DNA of 64,000 nucleotides from an uncultured Alphaproteobacteria bacterium (GCA_944392775.1 CALXXV010000006.1:215270-279269); one strand, 5' to 3'; positions 10,105-64,000 are shown, counted from the stretch's first letter. Program-made: numbers and translations. Notes: generated by a model not told the origin, from the letters alone.

Positions 10105-11532
10105 ATGTCTCAGATAAAAAAAGTTTTAATTGCTAATCGCGGTGAAATTGCTTTACGTATTATTCGTGCATGCCGTGATATGGGAATTCGTACGGTTGCA
10201 GTTTATTCAACTGTTGATAAAAATGCGATGCATGTACAGTTGGCAGATGAATCTGTATGTATCGGTCCTGGTCCATCAAAAGATTCTTATCTTAATGAGT
10301 CTGCTATTTTAACAGCAGCGTTGTTAACGAACGCTGATGCAATTCACCCAGGGTATGGGTTCTTATCAGAACGTGCGGACTTCGCACAGAAAGTTGAACA
10401 GCATGGTTTAATTTGGATTGGGCCATCTGCAGCGATGATTGAGAAAATGGGTGACAAGGTTAACGCAAAAAGAACTGCTATTGAATGTGGCTTACCTGTT
10501 GTACCGGGGTCTGACGGGGCAGTTTCTTCTTTGGAAGATGCGCTTTCTTGGGCTGAAAAAATTGGATATCCTGTTATGTTAAAGGCTGCTGCTGGTGGTG
10601 GTGGTCGTGGTATAAGACCTGTTATGTCTGCCGAAGAAATGCCAGCGGCTTATCAGATTACAAAGCAAGAAGCGAAATCAGGCTTTGGTGATGACACATT
10701 ATATATGGAAAAGTTATTGTTGCACCCAAGACACATTGAATTTCAGGTCTTAGGTGACCAGCATGGTAATGTAGTTATCTTTGGTGAACGCGATTGTTCT
10801 TTGCAACGTAAAAATCAGAAAGTTATGGAAGAATGCCCTGCTGCTATTTTAACGCAGAAACAACGTGACGATATGATTGAAATTTGCAAAACGGCGGCAA
10901 AGAAAATGGGGTATACAAATGCGGGTACTTTCGAATTTATGTTCGAAAATGGTAAGTTCTATTTCTTGGAAATGAATACACGTTTGCAAGTAGAACATCC
11001 TGTGACAGAAATGGTATATGGTGTTGACCTTGTGCGTGAACAGATACGTGTAGCAGCAGGTGAAAAACTGGGGTATACGCAATCTAATGTTGTCCCGCAT
11101 GGGCATGCAATAGAATTTCGTATAAATGCCGAAGACCCAGAAACGTTTATCCCAAATCCTGGAAATATAACACTGTATGCACCATCTGGTGGTATGGGGG
11201 TTCGCGTTGATAGTGCGGTATACACAGGTTATACTATTCCACCGACTTATGATTCTATGATTGCAAAATTAATCGTTCATGCACCAAATAGACCTGCGTG
11301 TATAATGCGGGCTATGCGTGCGCTGGACGAATTTGTAATTGAAGGTGTAAAAACTACAATTCCTTTGCAGCAGAAGCTATTAAAGAACAAAGATGTAAAG
11401 ACATTGAACTTTGATAATCACTGGTTAGAAAGCTATCTGCGCAATGAAAAAGAACAAGAAACCGAAAATACAGAAGAGCAAGAAGAACCACAAAAACCAG
11501 AAAAGAAGAAAACTGTAAAAAGAAAGAAATAA
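10105..11532 (+). CDS. accC: Biotin carboxylase subunit of acetyl-CoA carboxylase
   Basis: ATP-dependent carboxylation of biotin on AccB. The ATP-grasp enzyme starts with KKVLIANRGEIALR, has the glycine-rich AAAGGGGRGI loop near residue 161, then EFQVLGDQHGN, CSLQRKNQK, and the catalytic EMNTRLQVEHPVTE segment near residue 290. The core ends around residue 445. The last 30 residues form a charged Glu/Lys tail (NTEEQEEPQKPEKKK) that ordinary AccC lacks. At 475 aa it is otherwise standard. The tail is low-complexity and of unknown role. A bidirectional terminator follows. Confidence 0.96.
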   Translation: MSQIKKVLIANRGEIALRIIRACRDMGIRTVAVYSTVDKNAMHVQLADESVCIGPGPSKDSYLNESAILTAALLTNADAIHPGYGFLSERADFAQKVEQHGLIWIGPSAAMIEKMGDKVNAKRTAIECGLPVVPGSDGAVSSLEDALSWAEKIGYPVMLKAAAGGGGRGIRPVMSAEEMPAAYQITKQEAKSGFGDDTLYMEKLLLHPRHIEFQVLGDQHGNVVIFGERDCSLQRKNQKVMEECPAAILTQKQRDDMIEICKTAAKKMGYTNAGTFEFMFENGKFYFLEMNTRLQVEHPVTEMVYGVDLVREQIRVAAGEKLGYTQSNVVPHGHAIEFRINAEDPETFIPNPGNITLYAPSGGMGVRVDSAVYTGYTIPPTYDSMIAKLIVHAPNRPACIMRAMRALDEFVIEGVKTTIPLQQKLLKNKDVKTLNFDNHWLESYLRNEKEQETENTEEQEEPQKPEKKKTVKRKK

Positions 11533-11557
11533 AAAGCCGGCGTTTGCCGGTTTTTTT
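11531..11557. terminator. Bidirectional terminator between accC and sspB
   Basis: AAAAAGCCGGCG-TTT-GCCGGTTTTTTT between convergent genes; close in sequence to the hairpins at 7795 and 17875. Confidence 0.85.
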
Positions 11558-12020
11558 ATTTGTTTTTATTTTTCCTAAATTCGTCTAAAGAAACAATACG
11601 TCCTGTATCTGGTATGGTTCCCGGTTTTTCTTCTAATGGTAACTCCATATCGTTGTCAGCAGAGGCAACGCCTTTTGGATGAAAAGACAACATAAAATCT
11701 ACCGATGGATCTTTAAATTCAACCAGTGCAGAAAAAGGAACCCTTATAAAAAATGGTCTGCCATCAAAAGTTAGTTGAACGCCAAATTCTTTGTCTGAAA
11801 CATGCAAATTATTATAAGAATATTGCAAAACTATAGTCATTAAATCTGGGTATCTTATTCTTAAGAAATCCGGTAAAACCACCCCTGGTGCCCTTGTTTT
11901 AAATGTTATGAAAAAGTGTGTCCCGTCACCAAGTCCATTAAATTGTGCATGGATTAAAGCCTCTTTTACAACGGACTTTAAAGCATTATCTAGTAAATTC
12001 TGATAATCAATTTTACTCAT
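11556..12020 (-). CDS. sspB: SspB-like ClpXP adaptor (alphaproteobacterial type)
   Basis: Adaptor that tethers ssrA-tagged and selected native proteins to the ClpXP protease. The 154-aa protein follows the alphaproteobacterial SspB pattern: DALKSVVKEAL, HFFITFKTRAPGV, RYPDLMTIVLQY, then FSALVEFKDPSVDFML. The C-terminus (TGRIVSLDEFRKNKNK) would be the ClpX-docking tail. The ATG at 12020 has GGAGA at proper spacing and overlaps the recF stop by 8 bp; a longer in-frame start inside recF is less likely. Co-transcribed with tRNA-Cys and recF. The call rests on remembered family motifs. Confidence 0.88.
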   Translation of the reverse strand: MSKIDYQNLLDNALKSVVKEALIHAQFNGLGDGTHFFITFKTRAPGVVLPDFLRIRYPDLMTIVLQYSYNNLHVSDKEFGVQLTFDGRPFFIRVPFSALVEFKDPSVDFMLSFHPKGVASADNDMELPLEEKPGTIPDTGRIVSLDEFRKNKNK

Positions 12021-13104
12021 CTTTGTTCTCCGCAACAAGTATATTATTTATAATTCCATTGTTGCAAGCAACAAATATTGCATCAGGCACGTCTGCAAAA
12101 ACTGTTGCATCCAAACCGGTTGCCCAAACTTGTGCATCTGCGTTCTTAAGTTCTAAAAATAATTTTTTCCTTGCATTTGAATCTAAATGTGCAGCTGCTT
12201 CGTCTAATAATATAAGAGGTCTGCAAGATGTTTTTGTGTGAATAAGTTTTGCATGGGCTAAAATTAAATCCAATAAGGCCGTTTTTTGTTGGCCTGTACT
12301 GGTTAAGTTTGCCGGCAAATTTAATTTTTTATTAAACACCCCAAAATCTGATTTGTGCGGTCCATCTAAAATCATCTTGTCACCAATAAGTTCGCGGTTG
12401 TTATATAAATAGTCTAAATATTTTCTTTCAGATTCTGCTGCAGAATCTCCATTTATTAACATTTTTTCAATTAGGCCCGTAACAGTTATCGCGTAATCTT
12501 TTAAAAAGAAATTTAATTCACCTGCATATTGTATCCTTGCGACAGTAATTGCGACAGCTGTTCCAGCTATTTGCGTATCAAGTGCGTCTATCCAATTTTT
12601 GTCACGACCATTTTTTAATGCAAAAGCTCTTTCAGTCATAAGTTTAGAAAGTTTTGCAACACGCCCTGCATGAGTTACGTCAAAACTTGTTACAAGTCTG
12701 TCAAAAAATGCGCGTCTATCTGATGATGCGTCTACAAAAAGTCTGTCTTCTTTAGGAGTTAACCACACTATATGGATTTCTTTTGATAAATCAGAAAGTG
12801 TTGCATTCTCGCCATTTATTTTGGCATGCCTATTTGTATTGCAAGGTAAAAAATATACGGATAATTCGGTTTCATTAGTCAATGTTGCAAATATAGAAAA
12901 ACTACCGTCACCATTAAAACGAGCAATTTCATTCATTGCTGCGCCGCGAAGCCCTCGATCTCCGCCAAGCATAGATATCGCTTCTAATATTGCTGTTTTT
13001 CCCGCGCCATTTGGTCCTGTTATAATAATGTTATGATACCCACGCGTAATGATTCTGCATGTACTATGATTTCTAAAATTTGATAGGGTTATACTTTCAA
13101 TCAT
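12013..13104 (-). CDS. recF: DNA repair and recombination protein RecF
   Basis: SMC-like ATPase that acts with RecO and RecR to load RecA at gapped DNA. The N-terminus has ITLSNFRNH and the Walker A GPNGAGKTAILEAI near residue 34. The signature region TSTGQQKTALLDLILA and Walker B PLILLDEAAAHLD lie near the C-terminus. At 363 aa the size is normal. The frame stays open upstream through the tRNA-Cys gene, but the ATG at 13104 is the only sensible start. It lies just 9 nt after the tRNA's encoded CCA and has no Shine-Dalgarno sequence. It is not next to dnaA/dnaN as in many genomes. Confidence 0.93.
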   Translation of the reverse strand: MIESITLSNFRNHSTCRIITRGYHNIIITGPNGAGKTAILEAISMLGGDRGLRGAAMNEIARFNGDGSFSIFATLTNETELSVYFLPCNTNRHAKINGENATLSDLSKEIHIVWLTPKEDRLFVDASSDRRAFFDRLVTSFDVTHAGRVAKLSKLMTERAFALKNGRDKNWIDALDTQIAGTAVAITVARIQYAGELNFFLKDYAITVTGLIEKMLINGDSAAESERKYLDYLYNNRELIGDKMILDGPHKSDFGVFNKKLNLPANLTSTGQQKTALLDLILAHAKLIHTKTSCRPLILLDEAAAHLDSNARKKLFLELKNADAQVWATGLDATVFADVPDAIFVACNNGIINNILVAENKDE

Positions 13105-13113
13105 TACGAAAAT

Positions 13114-13187
13114 TGGAGGCCTGGGTCGGAATCGAACCGGCATAGAAGGATTTGCAGTCCTCTGCATAACCACTCTGCCACCAGGCC
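13114..13187 (-). tRNA. tRNA-Cys (anticodon GCA)
   Basis: Minus-strand cloverleaf: acceptor GGCCTGG/CCAGGCC, anticodon loop CTGCAAA giving GCA, T arm CGGTTCGATTCCG, encoded CCA and U discriminator as expected for tRNA-Cys. It directly precedes recF. Confidence 0.95.
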
Positions 13188-13202
13188 ATTTAAACGTGTG
13201 CA

Positions 13203-13208
13203 ATTATA
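13203..13208 (-). promoter_or_regulatory. Probable -10 box of the tRNA-Cys-recF-sspB transcript
   Basis: A consensus TATAAT read on the minus strand 15 bp upstream of the tRNA 5' end. A TTACAA 15 bp further upstream may be the -35 box. Confidence 0.55.
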
Positions 13209-13254
13209 CTACGCAAAAAAAAATTGTAATTCAACAGAAAAATTATACTATATA

Positions 13255-13263
13255 TGATATAAT
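13255..13263 (+). promoter_or_regulatory. Extended -10 promoter of the tolC-macA operon
   Basis: TGATATAAT, an extended -10 element with no clear -35 box. The same element and a nearly identical downstream leader (AAAAGAGAGAATGT) precede the ATPase gene at 15899. Confidence 0.6.
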
Positions 13264-13287
13264 TTGATAAAAAGAGAGAATGTTATA

Positions 13288-14613
13288 ATGAGAAAATTGA
13301 TGATTCTTGCTTGTTTGCTGCCGTGTCAGGTATGGGCGGCTCAAGATTGTATGTCCATAAATACTGTTCCAGAAGGTAAGTTGACCCTGCAAGAAGTTAT
13401 AGAACTTGGGCTTTGTAGAAATCCGGAAACGGCGTCGGCTTATTTGTCGTTGGAGTCCGCTAGATTTAGTAAAAATGCCGGTTATGCGCAATATTTACCA
13501 AGTGTAAGCGCATCAGGTTCGGCAAGTTTGCCTTATAGAAATAAAGAATGGTCAGATTGGTCCTATGGGGCTTCTCTTTCTGCATCATATTTAATATTTG
13601 ATTTTGGTAAAAGGTTTTCTGATGTAAGTCAGCTAATTTTAACTTGGCGTGCCACGGGCTTTGATTATAGTGAGTCTGTTCAGAACTATGTTTATAGCAT
13701 TATTGGCGCATATTATGCATTATTAAATGCGGATGCAGATGTTTTTACAGCTGAATCTTTGCGGGTTGTCGCACAAACAGCAAAGGATACAGCGGATAAA
13801 AAATATAAAGCCGGGGTAGTTGCAAAAGCAGATGTGTTAAAGGCTGATACAACGCTTGCAAGTCGTGTGCTGGACTTAGAACGTGCCAAAAATAATCGTG
13901 AGATTGCAAAAGGTACGTTGTTGTCAAAATTATCTTTCCCTGCTGATCAGAATATAGAAATTGCAGATATGCCCGCAGAATTTGGTAATGAATCAGAAAA
14001 TAAGAATATTGATGAACTTATTGCGCTGGCTGAAGAAAAACGCCCTGATCTGCTTCGTGCGTCTGCTAATAAAGATGCGGCATGGCATCGCAGAAATAGT
14101 GCATTTTTAAGTAATTTACCAAGTATTTCTGCGTCGGGTAGCTTGTCTTGGAATAATACGCCAAGTGAAGTTTATAATTCTGGGCAAGACAATATTAGCG
14201 GAAGTATCGGTATTCGCGCATCTATGCCAATATTTGCAGGATTTGCTAACATGTATAATGTGCGTTCTGCACAGGCAAATTATGAACGTGCAAAAGAGCA
14301 AGAACGTGCAACAAAAGATGCAGCTGTATTAGATGTTTTTACTGCATACCAGAACTATAAAACAGCACAGACTGTTCTTAAACAAACTGAAACATTATTA
14401 GCTTCGGCAAAAGAAACTGAAAATGTAACGGCTGGTATGTATAAGGTAGGTAAGGCAACTATGTTGGATTGGCAAACTGCATTAGCGGATTTAGCGGATG
14501 CACATAAACAAAATAACGCAGCAAAATATGATTTGTTTACAAAGCGTGCGGCGCTGGCACTGGCCATCGGTGATATAAAAGAAGGATTGATAGAGGGGGA
14601 AGAAAATGAATAA
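13288..14613 (+). CDS. TolC-family outer membrane efflux protein
   Basis: Outer-membrane channel of a tripartite efflux or type I secretion system. The ATG at 13288 has GAGAG upstream and begins a signal peptide (RKLMILACLLPCQVWA, cut near residue 17). The rest is long amphipathic helices with two related halves, as in TolC/OEP proteins, e.g. GVVAKADVLKADTTLASRVL and the equivalent KVGKATMLDWQTALADLADA. At 441 aa it is of normal size. It overlaps macA-like by 8 bp and so is in one operon with the adaptor, with the ATPase and permease just downstream. The substrate is unknown. Confidence 0.88.
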   Translation: MRKLMILACLLPCQVWAAQDCMSINTVPEGKLTLQEVIELGLCRNPETASAYLSLESARFSKNAGYAQYLPSVSASGSASLPYRNKEWSDWSYGASLSASYLIFDFGKRFSDVSQLILTWRATGFDYSESVQNYVYSIIGAYYALLNADADVFTAESLRVVAQTAKDTADKKYKAGVVAKADVLKADTTLASRVLDLERAKNNREIAKGTLLSKLSFPADQNIEIADMPAEFGNESENKNIDELIALAEEKRPDLLRASANKDAAWHRRNSAFLSNLPSISASGSLSWNNTPSEVYNSGQDNISGSIGIRASMPIFAGFANMYNVRSAQANYERAKEQERATKDAAVLDVFTAYQNYKTAQTVLKQTETLLASAKETENVTAGMYKVGKATMLDWQTALADLADAHKQNNAAKYDLFTKRAALALAIGDIKEGLIEGEENE

Positions 14614-51329: not shown

Positions 51330-53549
51330 ATGGTCGAAAAGTTCAAGATTTTATCCGCAGGCGGAAGCTCTAAGGGCTTGAATATATTCAAGTCTAGTGC
51401 ATATAAAGAACATCAGCGAACGCCAATGGCGTCGCTATTTTGGTCTTTACGTTGGGCGATTGGTATATGGCTTGTGTGCGCCCTTGCTTTCGGATTGTCT
51501 TTTATTGTTGAGCATTTGTGGCGATATGGTTGGTCGCCTGCGTCTGCAAAATGGATTAGTTTATATTTTCAGAATTTAATAACTAGTGGCGGTTTGTCTG
51601 TGTTAGCTGAAATACCGGCGTGGTTGACCCGAACAATTGTTCGTACTGATTTGCCATGTATGGTGCCGTTGCTACCGATAATTGCGTATTATTTTATGGC
51701 AGATAGCACATTGATAAAAGAATTTAACCCTTATGGTAACGATAAATTTGCGGAAAAATCTTCAAATAAAGCAACAAAAGAAGATATTGAAAAAATGGGG
51801 CTGTTTAAGGGCTTTATGATGGTTTTGGGCTATTTTAAGAAAAAGCCATTAATGATGAACGAATGCTTATCTGCTTTGTGCGTTGCGCCCCCAGGGACAG
51901 GTAAAACGTATGGGGTGGTATTGCCTACAATTTTTGAATGTAATAATGTGTCGATGATTATAAATGATCCAAAGCCAGAGTTATATCAGATTTCTTCAGC
52001 ATATCGTTCAACAATTGGACCTGTATTTATTATGAATTGGGCAGGGCAGGATGATCCAGAACGTGGTATTTATTATCCTTCTTGGAATCCTTTGTCCCCA
52101 GAACATGTACCGTTTGAAACAGAGCAGCGTGATTTATATATTGATTCTATTTGTAATGTTCTGATCCCAGATGTTGCGGCTTCTTCTGCTGACCCGCATT
52201 GGACGATTTCTGGTCGTGCCGGTTTGTCGGGTTTAATTCAGTTTATGGTATCAAAAGTAGAAAGAGCAAAGGCGGATGATTATTTTTATTCTCGTATAAC
52301 ATCGGGTACTTTTGATGCGGAAGATGCGGCTGTTTTATCTGATTATTATTTATCTATGATAAGTGATCCAAATGCGTATGCGGCTCATGCTTTGTTGCAA
52401 CGTGGGGAATTAAATGAAATGAACTATGTTCATATTGGCACATGGGACAAGATACCAGATGCGTGGATTGGTAAAGAAGCATCTCTTTCAATGATATTAG
52501 ATTGGATAAATGCCAGTCAAATAAAAATAGGGCAAGATTTAGAAGAACGCAGACGTCAAGGCGATCAAATGGTTATGATGGCGGATCCTATGAAAGATTT
52601 GTTTTCTGATGCTGTTGAAGAAGCGCGTCGTTATGCGTATTCTCATCGTGCTGTTTTAGAGTTGACTCAGCTTGCTAATACGCCTGATAAAGAACGTGGT
52701 TCTATTTTATCAACGATTATGGCGGGACTTGGAATCTTCCGTAATGCAGCTGTACGTAACAGAACAAGTCATTCAGATTTTCATTTTGAGGATTTACGTG
52801 GCTTAAAAGATCCACGTGACGGCAAAATAAAACCTGTAACTGTTTATTTGTCGATAAATATGGTTGATGCACAAGCGTTAAATCCTATAACTGGAATTTT
52901 TATTGAATTAATGACAAATTTCTTGTTAGCTAATGCGCCTGAACAATATCGTAATGGTCACAGGTTGGGACCATATCCTGTATTATTTGTTTTGGACGAG
53001 ATGCCAAAGATGCAGAAATTGCAGGCAGTTATCCAAGGACCGGACCTTGGGCGTGGTCAGAAGGTTTCTTATTTGATTATCGGACAGGACTTGCATCAGA
53101 TACAGGAAAAGTACGGTGCGGATGCGGCTGCAACGATTATATCTACGACTGCGGCAAAGATAGTATTGCGTCAAAATGACCCAGATACAGCAAAGCGCTT
53201 TTCTGAAATGATGGGATATAAGATGAAAGTTAAAACCGTAAAAGGTGCGGACGGTAAAGACAAAGAAGAAACTAGTGAAGAATTACTTTATACCCCTATG
53301 GATATTATGAAGTTGGATTACAAAAAACAACTTGTGATATTCCAAGGGTGGTATCATAGACCAATAGAAGCGGATAAACAGATGGCATTTGATGATCCAA
53401 AACTTGCTAGTTACATGGCAATGGGAGAATCAAGTCCATTACCGGAATTTTTAATTGCCTCACATCATGCTGCACTGGGGTATTCGGGTATTCCAAAGAT
53501 ATATATACCACAAACGAAAGAGACAAAGGTATTAGAACAAATAAAATAA
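51330..53549 (+). CDS. VirD4-type type IV secretion coupling ATPase (isolated)
   Basis: T4SS coupling proteins bind substrates and feed them to the secretion channel. N-terminal membrane helices lie near residues 42-62 and 108-124. The ATPase has Walker A VAPPGTGKTYG (near 185-195), MIINDPKPELYQIS, the SGRAGLSGLIQFM segment, and Walker B PVLFVLDEMPKMQKL near residue 550. The final part resembles VirD4/TraG: LIIGQDLHQIQEKYG and AAKIVLRQNDPDTAKRFSEM. 739 aa. No virB genes, relaxase or mobile-element features lie nearby; it sits between rsmE and fabZ with its own promoter and terminator. Rickettsiales carry dispersed T4SS genes; a comparable scatter is inferred. Confidence 0.9.
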   Translation: MVEKFKILSAGGSSKGLNIFKSSAYKEHQRTPMASLFWSLRWAIGIWLVCALAFGLSFIVEHLWRYGWSPASAKWISLYFQNLITSGGLSVLAEIPAWLTRTIVRTDLPCMVPLLPIIAYYFMADSTLIKEFNPYGNDKFAEKSSNKATKEDIEKMGLFKGFMMVLGYFKKKPLMMNECLSALCVAPPGTGKTYGVVLPTIFECNNVSMIINDPKPELYQISSAYRSTIGPVFIMNWAGQDDPERGIYYPSWNPLSPEHVPFETEQRDLYIDSICNVLIPDVAASSADPHWTISGRAGLSGLIQFMVSKVERAKADDYFYSRITSGTFDAEDAAVLSDYYLSMISDPNAYAAHALLQRGELNEMNYVHIGTWDKIPDAWIGKEASLSMILDWINASQIKIGQDLEERRRQGDQMVMMADPMKDLFSDAVEEARRYAYSHRAVLELTQLANTPDKERGSILSTIMAGLGIFRNAAVRNRTSHSDFHFEDLRGLKDPRDGKIKPVTVYLSINMVDAQALNPITGIFIELMTNFLLANAPEQYRNGHRLGPYPVLFVLDEMPKMQKLQAVIQGPDLGRGQKVSYLIIGQDLHQIQEKYGADAAATIISTTAAKIVLRQNDPDTAKRFSEMMGYKMKVKTVKGADGKDKEETSEELLYTPMDIMKLDYKKQLVIFQGWYHRPIEADKQMAFDDPKLASYMAMGESSPLPEFLIASHHAALGYSGIPKIYIPQTKETKVLEQIK

Positions 53550-55897: not shown

Positions 55898-56584
55898 TTA
55901 TCGTGCTGGTGAAATTCGTATTTCAACGCGACGGTTTGTTAGTCTTCCTATATCATCTTGGGCGGCAATAGGTCTTGTTGCACCGCGACCTACTATGAAC
56001 ATGCGTGCGGTACTAATCCCATGTTGAGAAAAATATACGCCTACGCGTTGTGCCATATCTAAAGATAAAGCATTTGCAGCCTGTTGATTCCTCATAGAAT
56101 CTGTGTATCCTGCAATTTCCATGAATGTGGCGTCATATTTCTTTAATATTTTAGATATTGTTTTAAGTGTGTCTGCGCCAGTTTCTGATATATCCGCGAC
56201 ATTTAATTCCATTATGGCATCGCGGACGAGTATTATTACTACGTCGGGACCAGCGCGTTGCACAGATATTCCTGGTTTTCTTAGAGCGTTGTATAGTTCG
56301 TATTCTAGTTTACTCATATAATTTATGCTTATGGCATTATCATTTGAAATCTTGTCACCATATTCCATTTGTGTATTTTCGTTTTCACTGGTAACTAATT
56401 TTCCACCAGTGCCAAGGAAAACAGGTTTTTTTGCAATTTTTGACATTTCTGTCATTTCTGTAAAACTTGCACCTTGTAAATATGTTGACCAAGTAGAACG
56501 TTCTGGGCTATGATAAGACACACAGCCAAAAAATAATGACGTTAATGATAAAAATAAAATGTTAAATATTTTTTTATATATCAT
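55898..56584 (-). CDS. OmpA-family lipoprotein coupled to a pseudopilin
   Basis: A 228-aa protein with a lipobox-like signal (FFGC, Cys near residue 21), a variable middle and a C-terminal OmpA domain: MEIAGYTDSMRNQQAANALSLDMAQRV and RLTNRRVEIRIS, the peptidoglycan-binding pattern. Its ATG overlaps the stop of the pseudopilin gene upstream (ATGA), so the two are translated together. This suggests that an outer-membrane/peptidoglycan anchor serves the pilin-like protein. It precedes skp on the same strand, with about 75 bp between the genes. Confidence 0.8.
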   Translation of the reverse strand: MIYKKIFNILFLSLTSLFFGCVSYHSPERSTWSTYLQGASFTEMTEMSKIAKKPVFLGTGGKLVTSENENTQMEYGDKISNDNAISINYMSKLEYELYNALRKPGISVQRAGPDVVIILVRDAIMELNVADISETGADTLKTISKILKKYDATFMEIAGYTDSMRNQQAANALSLDMAQRVGVYFSQHGISTARMFIVGRGATRPIAAQDDIGRLTNRRVEIRISPAR

Positions 56585-57039
56585 TCCACAGTAAACGAAA
56601 CTTTATTAGTTTTTGTTGAAAAACAATTTATATCTATATCTGTTTCTAGTCCGTTTATTATAATTTTTGTTGCCCAATTTTGTTTTGCGGTGGCAAAATA
56701 TTGACATTCACCAGAACTTAAATTCGTTAGATTTATTGAAAATCCTTTGCCGTTATTTATTGCTTCTACAGACCAGCCTTCGTCACCTATTGGGGCTTTA
56801 TCAGATTTTAGTGCACCCGATGAAATTAAGTATTGAATTGATACGCCTGTATAATCGCCTCGTAATTCCATAAGTAATTTAACATTTTTAGCAATTTGTT
56901 CTATTTCCATAGAAGCTATTTTCCTAGCCTGATTATTCTTTATTACGTTATAGATGCTTATTGCGCTGGCACTCATAATGCCAGCAATTGCTAAAACCCC
57001 TATAATTTCCATTAAAGAACGTCCTGATTCTTGATTCAT
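56581..57039 (-). CDS. Small type IV pilin-like (pseudopilin) protein
   Basis: A 152-aa protein with a short leader MNQESG and then the class III N-terminus RSLMEIIGVLAIAGIMSASAI. A prepilin peptidase would cut after Gly6, leaving Glu at mature position 5 (Glu11 of the precursor), as in true pilins. The hydrophobic helix continues into ISIYNVIKNNQARK and a globular head of about 110 residues with two cysteines. It is the first gene of a pair with the OmpA-type lipoprotein and lies 2 kb from three larger pilin-like genes on the other strand. No pilin assembly ATPase, platform protein or prepilin peptidase lies in the window. Confidence 0.8.
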   Translation of the reverse strand: MNQESGRSLMEIIGVLAIAGIMSASAISIYNVIKNNQARKIASMEIEQIAKNVKLLMELRGDYTGVSIQYLISSGALKSDKAPIGDEGWSVEAINNGKGFSINLTNLSSGECQYFATAKQNWATKIIINGLETDIDINCFSTKTNKVSFTVE

Positions 57040-59125: not shown

Positions 59126-60481
59126 GTGCAGGGGCAAAAGGGAAGTTTTTTATTGCAAGCGTTACTTGCCTTGGCGTTGATTTTTTCTTTTATACCGTTC
59201 CTTGCTCAACGTTTGGCAGAAAGGGATATTGATGCCCAAATGTATTCTTCCACAAGAAAAGTAGAGCTCGCACAAACTGCAGCAAGAATATTTATTCAAG
59301 AACGTGCAAACGATTTACCTTATAACAGAACAGTTGTGTCTGGTAATGATTTTGCCGATTTATTAGAACCTTATGGTTTGCCATTAGGGTTTGTGCCTCG
59401 TACTGCTTTAGGGCAAAATATTTCTTTAGTAATAAATAAAAATGCTACAGAAGTTGGCGCATACTTAGAAGTTACGGGCGGAAATTTAACCGGGGTTCAA
59501 TTAGCAGAATTAGCACGCAGAATTGGTTTTTATGCATCTGTGGTTGGAAGTGATATCATCGTTGGTTTGGCCTTGAACGAAACCTATGCGGATGTTGTGA
59601 AAAGAAATGAAGCCAACTTGGATAACTCTGTTTTTTTAACAAATTTAGATATGGGTGGTTTTTCTTTAGATAAAGCCGGTGATGTTTTTGGTCGTCGTGG
59701 TATATTTGAAACAGGAGAGTTTGGAACTTTATCTCTTTTTGGTCAAGAAAACGGACGTAATGAAAAAAATAATATAGAAGTTATGGCTTCGGAAAAGGCA
59801 ATTTTTCAAAGTAAAACTGGTGAAAGCGCACTTTCTGTAACCAGAGGAACGCTTTTGGTAGGTGATTTAAGTGCAAAGACGATTTCTAATTTTGGTGATA
59901 CAGGAAGTTTTGCTTCTAATACGGCGTCTGTATATAGTTTTGCCATGACAGCCGGCAGGACGAGTTTTTATGGACCAAATGATTGGAATGTTGGTGGTGA
60001 TGTAGTTACTGATAATATAAACTTTAGTTTAGAGCGTTTAGAAATAGATTCTTTTATAAATGTTTCTCGTGGGCAAGATGTGTTTATTGATCCCGACGAA
60101 CTAGAATATAGTTCTCGTAGTGGAATAGAAACAAGTTATCTGGCGGCTTCAAATATAACAATGAGAGATCAAACTTCAGATGCCTTGAATGATGGTGAAA
60201 CAGGTGCTGTTATTTTAGATATTAGACCTGCAGGAACGTCTGTTTTGCCAGACGCTCTTTTGGATTCAATAGATAATAATGTTTTTAGCATTATAGAAAA
60301 ACCAAAATCAGATGACGGTAAAATTGTAGATTGTAAATCTATAATAAATTCTTTAGAAGGTCGATATAATCAAAAATCGTTATCGCAATATATAATATGT
60401 CAATATGTTTTTTGGAATAGATTAGAAAAGCGTATAAATATAAAACAATGTTTGTTGGACGGTAAAAGTGGCTGTTTGTAA
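59126..60481 (+). CDS. Large PilV-like pseudopilin 1 (451 aa)
   Basis: Class III N-terminus: leader MQGQKG, then SFLLQALLALALIFSFIPFL. The position corresponding to Glu5 of pilins is Gln11, so this member lacks Glu5. Residues 90-150 (ISLVINKN, LEVTGGNLTGVQLAELARRIG) recall the conserved middle of plasmid PilV proteins. LDMGG occurs at 174-178. The part beyond is rich in short strands with Ser/Thr/Asn/Gly (SNFGDTGSFASNTASVYSF) and may form a beta-helix. A Cys-rich C-terminal tail of 60 residues (five Cys) ends the protein. The GTG start has a perfect AGGAGG. First of at least five overlapping or closely spaced genes. Confidence 0.75.
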   Translation: MQGQKGSFLLQALLALALIFSFIPFLAQRLAERDIDAQMYSSTRKVELAQTAARIFIQERANDLPYNRTVVSGNDFADLLEPYGLPLGFVPRTALGQNISLVINKNATEVGAYLEVTGGNLTGVQLAELARRIGFYASVVGSDIIVGLALNETYADVVKRNEANLDNSVFLTNLDMGGFSLDKAGDVFGRRGIFETGEFGTLSLFGQENGRNEKNNIEVMASEKAIFQSKTGESALSVTRGTLLVGDLSAKTISNFGDTGSFASNTASVYSFAMTAGRTSFYGPNDWNVGGDVVTDNINFSLERLEIDSFINVSRGQDVFIDPDELEYSSRSGIETSYLAASNITMRDQTSDALNDGETGAVILDIRPAGTSVLPDALLDSIDNNVFSIIEKPKSDDGKIVDCKSIINSLEGRYNQKSLSQYIICQYVFWNRLEKRINIKQCLLDGKSGCL

Positions 60482-61676
60482 AGAAGTTTTTTTATTTGAT
60501 AACAATCGTGGCGCTAGTATGCTAGAGGTGCTATTGGCGATGGCTATTGTTGCTATGGCTATGCCAGTTGTCTACAGTCAAATGAACGAGGTTAACGAAT
60601 CTTTGAGAGATATGTTAGATGCCCGTAAAATTATAGATTCTCGTGATGATGTATTAAATTTTGTTCGTTTAAACCAAGGCAGTTGGCCAGATGTTGCACA
60701 AATCCGTCTTGCTGATGAAGAGTTAGATGCGATTTCAGAATTACCTAAGGCCGGCTTTATAGACAAGTATTTCGTAAACGGTGCTACAGTTACAGACGTA
60801 TATCTTGCGTTTGATTTAGGGAAAACGAAGATCAGAACAAATAGAATCGCAAAAAATATAGGTACTGATGCGGCTGTCGTAGGTATTGATGGAATTGCTT
60901 ATGGGGATTCTTGGGCCGTTGCTGCGCCCGATTTCAAAGAAGGTGATCTAATATACCGTATATCTAAAAATATAATTGGTGAGGATAAATCAAAATTTTT
61001 GCATCGTACAGAAATGGGTGAAGAAAATTTAAATACGATGTTGCGTGATTTAAATATGGGTGGAAACAAGATATTAGACGTAGGGGGGATAGATGCAAAA
61101 TCTGCCAGAATAAATAATGCGTCTACTTCTTTTATTGAAGTTGGTAGTCTGTTGTCTGATAATATTTACTTTTCTTCGGGGGCAAATTTATATGCAGATA
61201 ATGCAGCATTTGGTGCTTTGCGTGTAACTGGAGATATAACCGGTTTTCGTAATATTTATGTTGATACATTAAATGGGAAAAATTATACGCCAAACGGACG
61301 TATAATTGCGGATCGGGCAACGATATATAATTCGATAAATATTGCAAATAATTTAACGTTAAAGTCAGATACTTCTCGTACGATAAGTGCATTTACAGGA
61401 ATAACGGCGCACTCATTAAATACTTCGTATATTTCAACAGAAGAGATAATTTTTTATGAAAATTTTGGTTTGACTATATCTGGTGAATTATTGATGTCAA
61501 CAACTTCTCCCCTAAAGATAGGGTCATGGGTTTTTCCTTCGCTTACGCCACCAAAATTTAGTGTGTTAAATTTACAGCGGGCAACGTTACCTGTTGCACC
61601 AATAAGTAAAGATTTTAGCGTAATAATGTCAAAAGGATGGCAGTTAGCGATACCAAAAGAAATGGAAATTAAATGA
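60468..61676 (+). CDS. Large PilV-like pseudopilin 2 (402 aa)
   Basis: Leader of 15 residues ending NNRG, then the class III helix ASMLEVLLAMAIVAMAMPVV with Glu20 at mature position 5. A middle domain (residues 80-185) is followed by LNMGGNKILDVGG at 195, the best copy of the motif shared by all three proteins. The following region is made of short repeated strands with Asp/Asn-Ala turns (LYADNAAFGALRVTGD, RATIYNSINIANNLTL), consistent with a beta-solenoid stalk. The GTG start lies inside the previous gene (14-bp overlap). No LPxTG, no membrane helix beyond the N-terminal one. Confidence 0.75.
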   Translation: MAVCKEVFLFDNNRGASMLEVLLAMAIVAMAMPVVYSQMNEVNESLRDMLDARKIIDSRDDVLNFVRLNQGSWPDVAQIRLADEELDAISELPKAGFIDKYFVNGATVTDVYLAFDLGKTKIRTNRIAKNIGTDAAVVGIDGIAYGDSWAVAAPDFKEGDLIYRISKNIIGEDKSKFLHRTEMGEENLNTMLRDLNMGGNKILDVGGIDAKSARINNASTSFIEVGSLLSDNIYFSSGANLYADNAAFGALRVTGDITGFRNIYVDTLNGKNYTPNGRIIADRATIYNSINIANNLTLKSDTSRTISAFTGITAHSLNTSYISTEEIIFYENFGLTISGELLMSTTSPLKIGSWVFPSLTPPKFSVLNLQRATLPVAPISKDFSVIMSKGWQLAIPKEMEIK

Positions 61677-62992
61677 TGTTTTCAAGAATTTTTTTTACAG
61701 AAAAAAATAAAAATCAATGCGGAAGCATGTTGGTTGAGTTGTTGATGAGTATTGCTTTGGCGGCGATTATTATGCCATTTATTTTTAGGTATCAAAAAAA
61801 TGCCATTATGCGCGCAGAAAATATTGCCATAACAAAAAAAATGGAGGGGATTCAGGACGCTTTAGAATTATATATTATTGATAATCGGGATATTTTGTTA
61901 AATACTATTGGCAGAAATATTTATAGGGTAAACTTATCGGATTTATCAGAATATGGTTTGTCTACAGATTTATTCTATGGCGTTGAAGATGATTACCAAT
62001 TACGTATTTTAAAATCAAACGATATAGATGGCAAGGCCACATTACAGGGGGTAATTGTTTTTTCTTCAGATGAAATTTCTCCTTTGCGAACAAGGGAAAT
62101 TGTAGCATTAGGTGGCGATTCTATGGGCTTTATAGAAGGGAAACGTGCTTATGGTAATTTTGGGGCGTGGCACACAGATTCTGTAGATTTAGGGGTTTCT
62201 GTTCCAGAAGGCATTATAGAAACAACTAGTGTAAATCGTGATAACGCACTTTATTTATGGCGTGCCCCTTCTGATAACGCTTCTGACGCTACGATGTTAT
62301 CGGGTTTAAATTTAGGGGGGCATAACATAGAAAATGTTGAGTTTTTTAATGCCAAAGCAGCCCAATTTGATGAAACTCTAACATTAGGAGTTGCTGTCGC
62401 AAAAGATACAATATTTCAAAATAGGGTAACTATAGAGCAATTATTTGAAAGTGCGAACGCCACTGTTTCTGGTGTTTTATCATCAGATTCTAGAACACTA
62501 GAAGTTTCTGGTACTTTAAATTTAGCGGATACGGCAAAGTTTTCTAATTTTGATACAAATGATTTGTGGGTTTCCAATATGACGCTTGGGGGATTATCTG
62601 TTTATTCGGAAGATGACGAAGCGGCAATATTAAAAGTAAATAAATCAATTGATATGACACGCGGTCGTATAAACGCAATGTATGTTACTGTTGGGTTTGC
62701 TGGTTCTATAACACCACGTTTGGTCGTTTACGATAGAATAGAAGATTCTACGAATCCAAATTATTTTTGGGATGCAAGTTTAGGGGTTGCAAACTTTTTA
62801 GACGTTTCTTTTGAAGAGTTAAATAGAATGGCTATTTTAGCTGTTTATGAAGAGGATAAAGATACAGAAACTTATGAAATATTTCAAAGTCTTCTGGTAA
62901 ATAAAAATGTTACCGTTTCTGATTATATGAATGCCATACAAAAAATACAAGAAATGGTTAGTGCAAAATATAGAAAGTTGAATTTGGAATAA
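61673..62992 (+). CDS. Large PilV-like pseudopilin 3 (439 aa)
   Basis: Leader of 17 residues ending NQCG, then SMLVELLMSIALAAIIMPFIF with Glu22 at mature position 5. LNLGGHNIENVEFFNAKAA at 212 aligns with the motif in the two upstream proteins. Later strands (RTLEVSGTLNLADTAKFSNF; MTLGGLSVYSEDDEA) repeat a similar pattern, with a helical C-terminal end (EIFQSLLVNKN, YMNAIQKIQEMVSAKYRKL). Its ATG overlaps the stop of gene 2 in ATGATG. A second in-frame ATG follows directly. Confidence 0.75.
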   Translation: MMFSRIFFTEKNKNQCGSMLVELLMSIALAAIIMPFIFRYQKNAIMRAENIAITKKMEGIQDALELYIIDNRDILLNTIGRNIYRVNLSDLSEYGLSTDLFYGVEDDYQLRILKSNDIDGKATLQGVIVFSSDEISPLRTREIVALGGDSMGFIEGKRAYGNFGAWHTDSVDLGVSVPEGIIETTSVNRDNALYLWRAPSDNASDATMLSGLNLGGHNIENVEFFNAKAAQFDETLTLGVAVAKDTIFQNRVTIEQLFESANATVSGVLSSDSRTLEVSGTLNLADTAKFSNFDTNDLWVSNMTLGGLSVYSEDDEAAILKVNKSIDMTRGRINAMYVTVGFAGSITPRLVVYDRIEDSTNPNYFWDASLGVANFLDVSFEELNRMAILAVYEEDKDTETYEIFQSLLVNKNVTVSDYMNAIQKIQEMVSAKYRKLNLE

Positions 62993-63000
62993 AATATGCT

Positions 63001-63513
63001 ATGAATCGTCGTATGAAAACAGTATGTGATTTTTGTAAAACAGAATATTCATTAGATGCAGTGCCTAAAACGCCTGTAAAGTGCGCCGTTTGTGGAAATG
63101 TATGGACTGTGCAAAGTCCTGTACGAAGAAATACTTTTTTGACTTTTGTCGCGGCACTGTGCGCTTTACTTGCAGCCGCTGTTTTCGCGATTGCTGTTAT
63201 TGCGGAACATCAAATAAAACAGGTTCAAGAAAAACCGTTGGTTGCAGAAATTACAGAAATAAATACAGTTGTTGATGAAAAAGGTGAAAATCGTTTCGTC
63301 GTTAGTGGGGTATTACATAATAGATCTGGACAAATTTATGGCGCACCAAGTTTGGTTATTGTTTCATATGATGATGAAGATATGGTGCTGGATAAACAAA
63401 AATTTTTGCCACCTGCTACGTTATTAGATGCTGGTGCAAATGTAGAGTTTGTACATGTTTTATCTGTTCCGACAGATAATGTAAAAAAAATAGGTGTAGA
63501 TCTAGAAAAATAG
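63001..63513 (+). CDS. Zinc-ribbon, single-pass membrane protein (MJ0042/DUF3426-like)
   Basis: A 170-aa protein with an N-terminal zinc ribbon of two Cys-x2-Cys pairs (CDFC and CAVC, residues 9-34) of the MJ0042 type, a basic stretch, a membrane helix near residues 47-69 (FVAALCALLAAAVFAIAVIA) and a periplasmic domain with FVVSGVLHNRSGQIYGAPSLVI, which fits the DUF3426-like fold. The position 8 bp after pseudopilin 3 suggests that it belongs to the pilin-like operon, perhaps as a membrane assembly or regulatory partner; this is inference. Confidence 0.75.
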   Translation: MNRRMKTVCDFCKTEYSLDAVPKTPVKCAVCGNVWTVQSPVRRNTFLTFVAALCALLAAAVFAIAVIAEHQIKQVQEKPLVAEITEINTVVDEKGENRFVVSGVLHNRSGQIYGAPSLVIVSYDDEDMVLDKQKFLPPATLLDAGANVEFVHVLSVPTDNVKKIGVDLEK

Positions 63514-63523
63514 GGGGAGAAGA

Positions 63524-64000
63524 ATGAAAAAAATATTATTCATCTTTTTGAGCATTGTTTTTTTAGGAACTAATGTCTTTGCCATGACAAAAAAACCTGT
63601 TCAATCAAGAGATATAGATAATCTTCCGCAACCCCGTATAAGTGTTTTTTCAACCAGTACAGATTGGGAAGGTTTGACGGGACTTTTGTTTCATGAATAT
63701 CATGGAAATTTTGTTTCTGCTTCTGGTCTTGTTGGGAAAGGGTTGGTTTTATATTATTTAGATGGGTTTCCATGCTACGGTTTGGGCGAAGGCGTTAGGG
63801 TTTGGCTTGGCCCGAATGATAAACATGATGGGGAATTGAGAATTGCGTGTTTATATCCGCCAAAGGAGATAAAGTTTACGTGGCGTAATGCTAGTAGAGA
63901 TGCTGATGAGGCCGTAAGTACAGGAATGCTTACTTGTCCTGTGGATGATGATGCACGAGAACTTACAATAAATTTATCAGAGTGTAAAAAAACAGAAAGC
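63524..64000 (+). CDS. Secreted protein, partial (runs off the window)
   Basis: The ATG at 63524, with a GGGGGAGAAG ribosome binding site, opens an uninterrupted frame of 159 codons to the window end. Residues 1-20 (KKILFIFLSIVFLGTNVFA) form a cleavable signal peptide. The mature part reads MTKKPVQSRDIDNLP, ISVFSTSTDWEGLTG and LYYLDGFPCYGLGEG; it contains four cysteines in view (CYGLGEG, ACLYPP, LTCPV, SECKK). No family recognised. It follows the zinc-ribbon gene by 10 bp in the same direction and so is likely the fifth gene of the pilin-like operon. Confidence 0.7.
   Translation, partial: MKKILFIFLSIVFLGTNVFAMTKKPVQSRDIDNLPQPRISVFSTSTDWEGLTGLLFHEYHGNFVSASGLVGKGLVLYYLDGFPCYGLGEGVRVWLGPNDKHDGELRIACLYPPKEIKFTWRNASRDADEAVSTGMLTCPVDDDARELTINLSECKKTES

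Follow-up and report, generated by a model that had tools for sequence, protein, structure and literature searches.

The question raised by this locus is whether three adjacent pilin-like genes, lying near one end of a 64,000-nucleotide stretch of bacterial chromosome (the window), encode parts of a single surface structure. The initial annotation had proposed that they are tandem PilV-like minor pilins forming a heteromeric tip or stalk on a pseudopilus. The window lies on contig C6 of an 860 kb genome of Candidatus Enterousia, a member of the order Rs-D84 of the Alphaproteobacteria (PMC12306168). An ORF search recovered the three consecutive, overlapping genes that had been described, all on the plus strand (in the leaders given here, a slash separates residues -1 and +1):

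59126-60481, + strand: MP1, 451 aa, GTG start, leader MQGQKG/S
60468-61676, + strand: MP2, 402 aa, GTG start, overlapping MP1 by 14 nt
61673-62992, + strand: MP3, 439 aa, joined to MP2 by an ATGA overlap

In one relative (G044, L056:5265-6639) the MP1 gene is split between two frames, by either a frameshift or an assembly error.

Single-sequence searches were weak. The window's own MP1, MP2 and MP3 all fell under the curated cut-offs of Pfam and NCBIfam, including that of Shufflon_N. MP2 matched N_methyl at 16.7 bits and GspI at 20.2 bits, both under cut-off, and the family search gave nothing reliable for MP1 or MP3. A sequence search of the PDB returned no meaningful match for MP1 or MP2 and only pilin N-termini for MP3, and a PHROGs search of the trio returned no meaningful match. 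The PilV identity was settled by profile comparison. Class alignments of 36 to 38 members each of MP1, MP2 and MP3, drawn from across the order, were compared by hhalign with six plasmid PilV proteins, giving probabilities of 98.7% for MP1 and 99.0% for both MP2 and MP3 over matches spanning 190-276 columns. The N-terminal halves alone gave 99.1-99.3% (185-276 columns when these and the full-length matches are taken together), and after removal of the N-terminal transmembrane helix the values were 98.0% for MP1, 98.0% for MP2 and 98.7% for MP3, as against at most 0.6% for reversed or column-shuffled control profiles. The match runs through an LxMGxN motif, whose PilV version is IDMGSNNLNN or LNMGDNRINN, and the pilin domain and motif together occupy about 190 residues (approximately 6-195 in MP1). 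Divergent class members also match Shufflon_N (PF04917) directly, with best values of 5.2e-6 for MP1, 2.4e-5 for MP2 and 4.2e-6 for MP3 (the protein at L052:4134-5489 is one example), the three profiles retrieve chromosomal as well as plasmid PilVs, and the MP3 profile matches the N-terminus of geopilin (E 3.3e-4). The proposed PilV-like character of all three proteins is thus upheld by the helix-free comparisons and the Shufflon_N matches, and these profiles strongly support the reading of MP1, MP2 and MP3 as paralogues, all of them PilV-type minor pilins belonging to a type IVb pilus.

Each of the three carries a class III prepilin leader (MP1 QKG/SFLLQALLAL, MP2 NRG/ASMLEVLLAM, MP3 QCG/SMLVELLMS). 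MP2 and MP3 have both the Gly at -1 and the Glu at +5 of PilV-type proteins, and MP1 has the Gly with Gln at +5; the class III N-terminus originally ascribed to all three is confirmed as regards the leader, with a correction at position +5 of MP1. Gln5 occurs in MP1 of every one of the 78 readable relatives from the named loci, and also in family f4. By family, Gln5 is found in f1 and f4 and Glu5 is kept in f2, f3, f5 and f6 (four of the six), so loss of Glu5 is not a constant trait of the first position across the order. A clear replacement of Glu5 by Gln was seen in MP1 only. Position 5 of MP2 and MP3 is Glu in nearly all readable cases and Asp in a few, and the single N and K readings there come from an automatic motif match unreviewed by eye. 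The motif itself lies where it was first reported, as LDMGG at residue 174 of MP1, LNMGGNKI at 195 of MP2 and LNLGGHNI at 212 of MP3. In the class alignments, conservation across the order is complete or reaches at least 90% at L174/M176 of MP1, N189/M191/L195 of MP2 and M208/L212/I219 of MP3.

Predicted structures agree with the profile matches, the Z values alone being modest. The best match of the MP1 AF2 model is TcpA (Z 8.6 over 130 residues), with XcpGHIJK also listed at Z 5.4. Foldseek gave no match to the MP3 AlphaFold model at E < 0.001, and the pilin fold emerged only on realignment, when all 11 top structures were type IV pilin entries or PilM; its pilin domain matched S. typhi PilS (Z 7.9), TcpA, TcpB (Z 6.7) and CofB (Z 5.2). 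Modelled as single chains, MP1 and MP3 have a good pilin domain, and the middle parts of both are of low confidence, which would fit an obligate oligomer and also a plain modelling failure. Two of the C-terminal domains have features of their own:

MP1, residues 403, 425, 442 and 450: four invariant Cys in the C-terminal domain
MP3, residues ~355-435: helical C-terminal domain

The C-terminal halves match neither one another nor PilV (hhalign probability at most 2.7%). DNA repeats across the trio were limited to short, chance-like pairs, and matching each profile against itself by hhalign produced nothing from real and shuffled input alike, and so says nothing about repeats. The repetitive, stalk-like C-termini said to be common to the three proteins were not recovered: no repeat structure was found, and the halves are mutually unrelated. 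The lengths of MP1, MP2 and MP3, compared as a possible sign of a shared stalk, show no clear co-variation. Within the genus, the C-terminal halves are conserved at 0.54-0.61 and the pilin modules at 0.58-0.62. Shufflon-like variation was considered and rejected, there being no sfx-type repeats and the C-termini being nearly as conserved as the pilin modules; no recombinase ORF was recognised beside the trio.

The remaining components of an R64-type machine are also encoded in the genome. One cluster (L006) encodes PilO (PF06864 PAP_PilO, 31.5 bits) and PilP (TIGR03021, 39 bits), both over cut-off, together with PilQ and PilR, which are over cut-off as T2SSE and T2SSF matches. Another locus (L170) encodes a secretin lipoprotein with TcpQ (PF10671, 1.1e-17) upstream, and there is one A24 prepilin peptidase. 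A candidate major pilin lies close to the trio:

56581-57039, - strand: PilS-like pilin, PF08805 at its cut-off (22.0 bits)

This gene is divergent to the trio, with dnaX between them, and is kept beside the trio across the genus at 47-63% identity. It is followed by a gene for an OmpA-family lipoprotein (together 55898-57039, - strand), an arrangement also kept across the genus. The suggested check for a prepilin peptidase and pilB/pilC-type partners elsewhere in the genome was answered by the A24 peptidase and the PilQ and PilR homologues, and the machine genes, of R64 type, sit at scattered chromosomal sites. The term pseudopilus is not supported. The neighbours of the ATPase gene are type IVb proteins, and TcpQ, PAP_PilO, PilP and a PilS-like pilin identify the predicted machine as a type IVb pilus of R64/TCP type. 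Besides PilQ, the T2SSE relatives seen in the genome are a VirB11-like protein and one weak match, so that no retraction ATPase of the PilT type was recognised. A VirD4-like coupling protein in the window (51330-53549, + strand) and the VirB11-like ATPase (G000:C3:133635-133973) indicate that a chromosomal type IV secretion system is probably also present.

The trio recurs throughout the order, as the initial annotation had suggested should be checked. The order MP1-MP2-MP3 is seen in 76 of 80 named loci, the other four being cut by contig ends, an arrangement far from chance. All six sampled families have the three genes adjacent and in 1-2-3 order in every intact locus inspected, with differing neighbours. 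Of the 201 genomes of the order, 194 have a match to the MP3 profile and 188 to PilQ. True absence from five Enterousia genomes (G177, G128, G155, G175 and G113) was rejected in favour of assembly gaps because the adjoining dnaX is missing as well. One genome of family f1, genus g27 (G198), has dnaX and lacks the trio and PilQ, both of which its sister G199 possesses, so that G198 may have lost the pilus altogether. In a tree of pilin modules the three proteins form separate clades (supports 84/77 for MP1, 99/97 for MP2 and 97/89 for MP3), and the same grouping of families, (f2,f4), (f3,f6) and (f5,f1), is repeated in each. A clade for each gene with the same family branching places the triplication before the order, and in the sampled lineages each of the three has been kept and none exchanged for another.

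Outside the order, PilV relatives are mostly single. A Pfam search for Shufflon_N in 398 Pseudomonadota genomes gave 8 positives, with a single PilV gene per place. Searched with the MP3 profile, twelve further alphaproteobacterial genomes gave large PilV-like proteins (~620-1120 residues), a single one at each locus examined; these group with the trio family (95/95), and the tree does not separate a position of the single proteins within the trio from one beside it. Very large single PilV-like proteins with a GSMMVEA-type N-terminus, in frames of roughly 860-1190 residues, come from several other alphaproteobacterial families (L204-L210, L216, L221). The exceptions to single genes are two recent tandem pairs (G635, L202:821-3920; G685, L215:4299-8917) and one tandem trio, in the small alphaproteobacterial genome G674 (L203:5049-10070). 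This second trio forms a separate clade (97/94) and so arose independently; its three proteins have similar tails, -GYIE, -GYLE and -GYIK.

Two further genes follow the trio in Enterousia:

63001-63513: zinc-ribbon ORF
63524 on: secreted Cys-containing ORF (Sec164), 164 aa in full

Both had been counted as members of the same unit. The genes exist as described, and their membership did not hold up, for L052, from family f4, has its Sec164 homologue and a comparable zinc-ribbon ORF together with rluD, several kilobases from the trio and separated from it by a block resembling ftsEX. The two proteins are therefore better regarded as neighbours of the trio than as components. Also encoded downstream of the trio (L007:6286-9489, 11127-13187 and 13184-13954) are large secreted Cys-containing proteins of no known family, the first of them conserved across the genus at ~42-56% identity.

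Taken together, we think it reasonably probable that the trio codes for the tip (priming) complex of a type IVb pilus, a heteromeric 1:1:1 tip used for attachment. The tip would be heteromeric, and probably heterotrimeric, replacing the usual homotrimer. Its heteromeric nature is the better grounded because of the shared gene order, the ancient triplication, the loss of Glu5 in MP1 and the independent trio of G674; the heterotrimer and the attachment function are what we infer. In such a scheme the A24 peptidase would process MP1, MP2 and MP3, and the inner membrane would be where one copy of each comes together, MP1 (without Glu5) at the top and the other two beneath it. Past the LxMGxN junction the three C-terminal halves would wind round one another to form a heterotrimer, where TcpB and CofB form homotrimers. 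PilQ and PilR would then extend the pilus from below with PilS-like pilin and so drive the tip out through the secretin, and the exposed, non-interchangeable C-terminal domains would contact a partner cell or surface. Retraction, if any, would need to be of the TcpB-triggered kind, because a PilT-type ATPase was not found. Attachment to a partner cell would be the likeliest use because of the predicted dependence of the lineage on other cells; PMC12306168 describes Rs-D84 bacteria as predicted obligate symbionts or parasites of other gut cells, and mentions type IV pili for another lineage, UBA9783.

The attachment step has a competitor of its own, in which the pilus is a DNA-uptake (competence) or secretion device and the trio captures DNA or binds cargo at the tip. 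We regard this as rather unlikely, and it competes only with adhesion, not with the tip complex. The genome does encode a ComEC-type Competence domain (1.7e-52), but this domain is common, being present in 12 of 14 control genomes. Secretion would suit the large secreted Cys-rich proteins downstream of the trio, and tips of the TcpB type carry secreted cargo such as TcpF (PMC9565799).

The tip complex itself would have to be redrawn if the three proteins formed three alternative homotrimeric tips, each capping different pili, a fixed adhesin repertoire instead of a shufflon. Known type IVb tips are trimers of one minor pilin, TcpB or CofB (PMC9565799, PMC10191384), PilV relatives outside the order are mostly single, unrelated C-terminal halves are expected of different ligands, and the recent tandem pairs of G635 and G685 resemble the growth of a repertoire. 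A repertoire should, however, gain, lose and reshuffle members, yet exactly three classes in one order are found across six families, with C-terminal halves that, within the genus, are almost as well conserved as the pilin modules, and the presence of Gln5 in MP1 alone suggests unequal positions. We consider such a repertoire unlikely.

A serial tip like that of GspIJK, in which the proteins are stacked by way of their pilin domains alone, each C-terminal half folding by itself and no trimer forming, we consider distinctly improbable. MP1 without Glu5 parallels the capping subunit of the GspHIJK/PilHIJK complexes (PMC10191384), and both the sub-threshold GspI match of MP2 and the XcpGHIJK entry among the MP1 fold matches point the same way. 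The closest profile homologues, however, are PilV and not GspIJK, the middle segments fail to fold as monomers in AlphaFold, and TcpB, the most thoroughly studied tip protein of type IVb pili, trimerises through the regions that follow its pilin domain (PMC9565799). That these are unrelated secreted or membrane proteins with pilin-like N-termini by chance, as their position under the Pfam and NCBIfam curated cut-offs might suggest, is refuted by PilV matches that persist without the N-terminal helix, the pilin fold of both models and the complete type IVb machinery in the genome.

Returning to the heteromeric tip, a bolder version of it is that an obligate PilV heterotrimer arose by one ancient triplication of a homotrimer and, retained throughout this order of reduced-genome gut bacteria, grips the cells that the lineage needs, the same step having been taken independently in a second alphaproteobacterial lineage; this we put forward tentatively, as a possibility close to an even prospect. 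In very small-genomed gut bacteria, a tip protein that is one gene in known relatives has become three proteins side by side. A pilus that almost all genomes of the order encode, and whose three-part tip is conserved, offers a direct candidate for an attachment organelle, and such a tip, if confirmed, would be fitting for bacteria with small genomes that probably draw metabolites from other cells. It would also offer a natural test of the relationship between the homotrimeric tips of type IVb pili and the heteromeric ones of type IVa, type II and Tad systems. Among open-licence texts on Rs-D84, Enterousia, PilV variants and heteromeric type IVb tips, we found no prior description.

TcpB of the V. 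cholerae TCP and CofB of ETEC CFA/III are, like the trio, type IVb minor pilins with a large C-terminal extension, and they initiate the pilus and sit at its tip. They differ in being encoded by one gene each and forming homotrimers (for TcpB, PMC9565799), and no match of their C-terminal sequences to the trio was found. Type IVa and type II tips consist of several minor pilins capped by a subunit without Glu5, so that GspIJK and PilIJK resemble the trio in comprising several different minor pilins, one of them without Glu5 (for the trio, MP1 of families f1 and f4), but they are not of the PilV lineage and reportedly do not occur in type IVb systems (PMC10191384). Tips built as heterotrimers from three modular minor pilins, and contacting cells or surfaces, are known from KilLMN of the Myxococcus xanthus Kil (Tad) pilus, which touches prey (PMC12075869), and from PilABC of Streptococcus sanguinis. 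These belong to Tad (type IVc) and type IVa-like systems, and the likeness is one of description. BfpI, BfpJ and BfpK of the EPEC bundle-forming pilus are small proteins not known to carry long C-terminal halves. They too are three minor pilins of one type IVb system, a likeness again by description (PMC4810605). PilV of the IncI plasmids R64 and TP114 (PF04917) has the same prepilin leader, pilin domain and L.R...M...LxMGxNxIxN junction, a C-terminal half that varies between proteins, and a machine of the same type (PilN, O, P, Q, R, S). The trio differs from it in having three genes and not one, with fixed C-termini, no sfx repeats and no shufflase recognised beside it, and in being chromosomal, with scattered machine genes and an MP1 that lacks Glu5.
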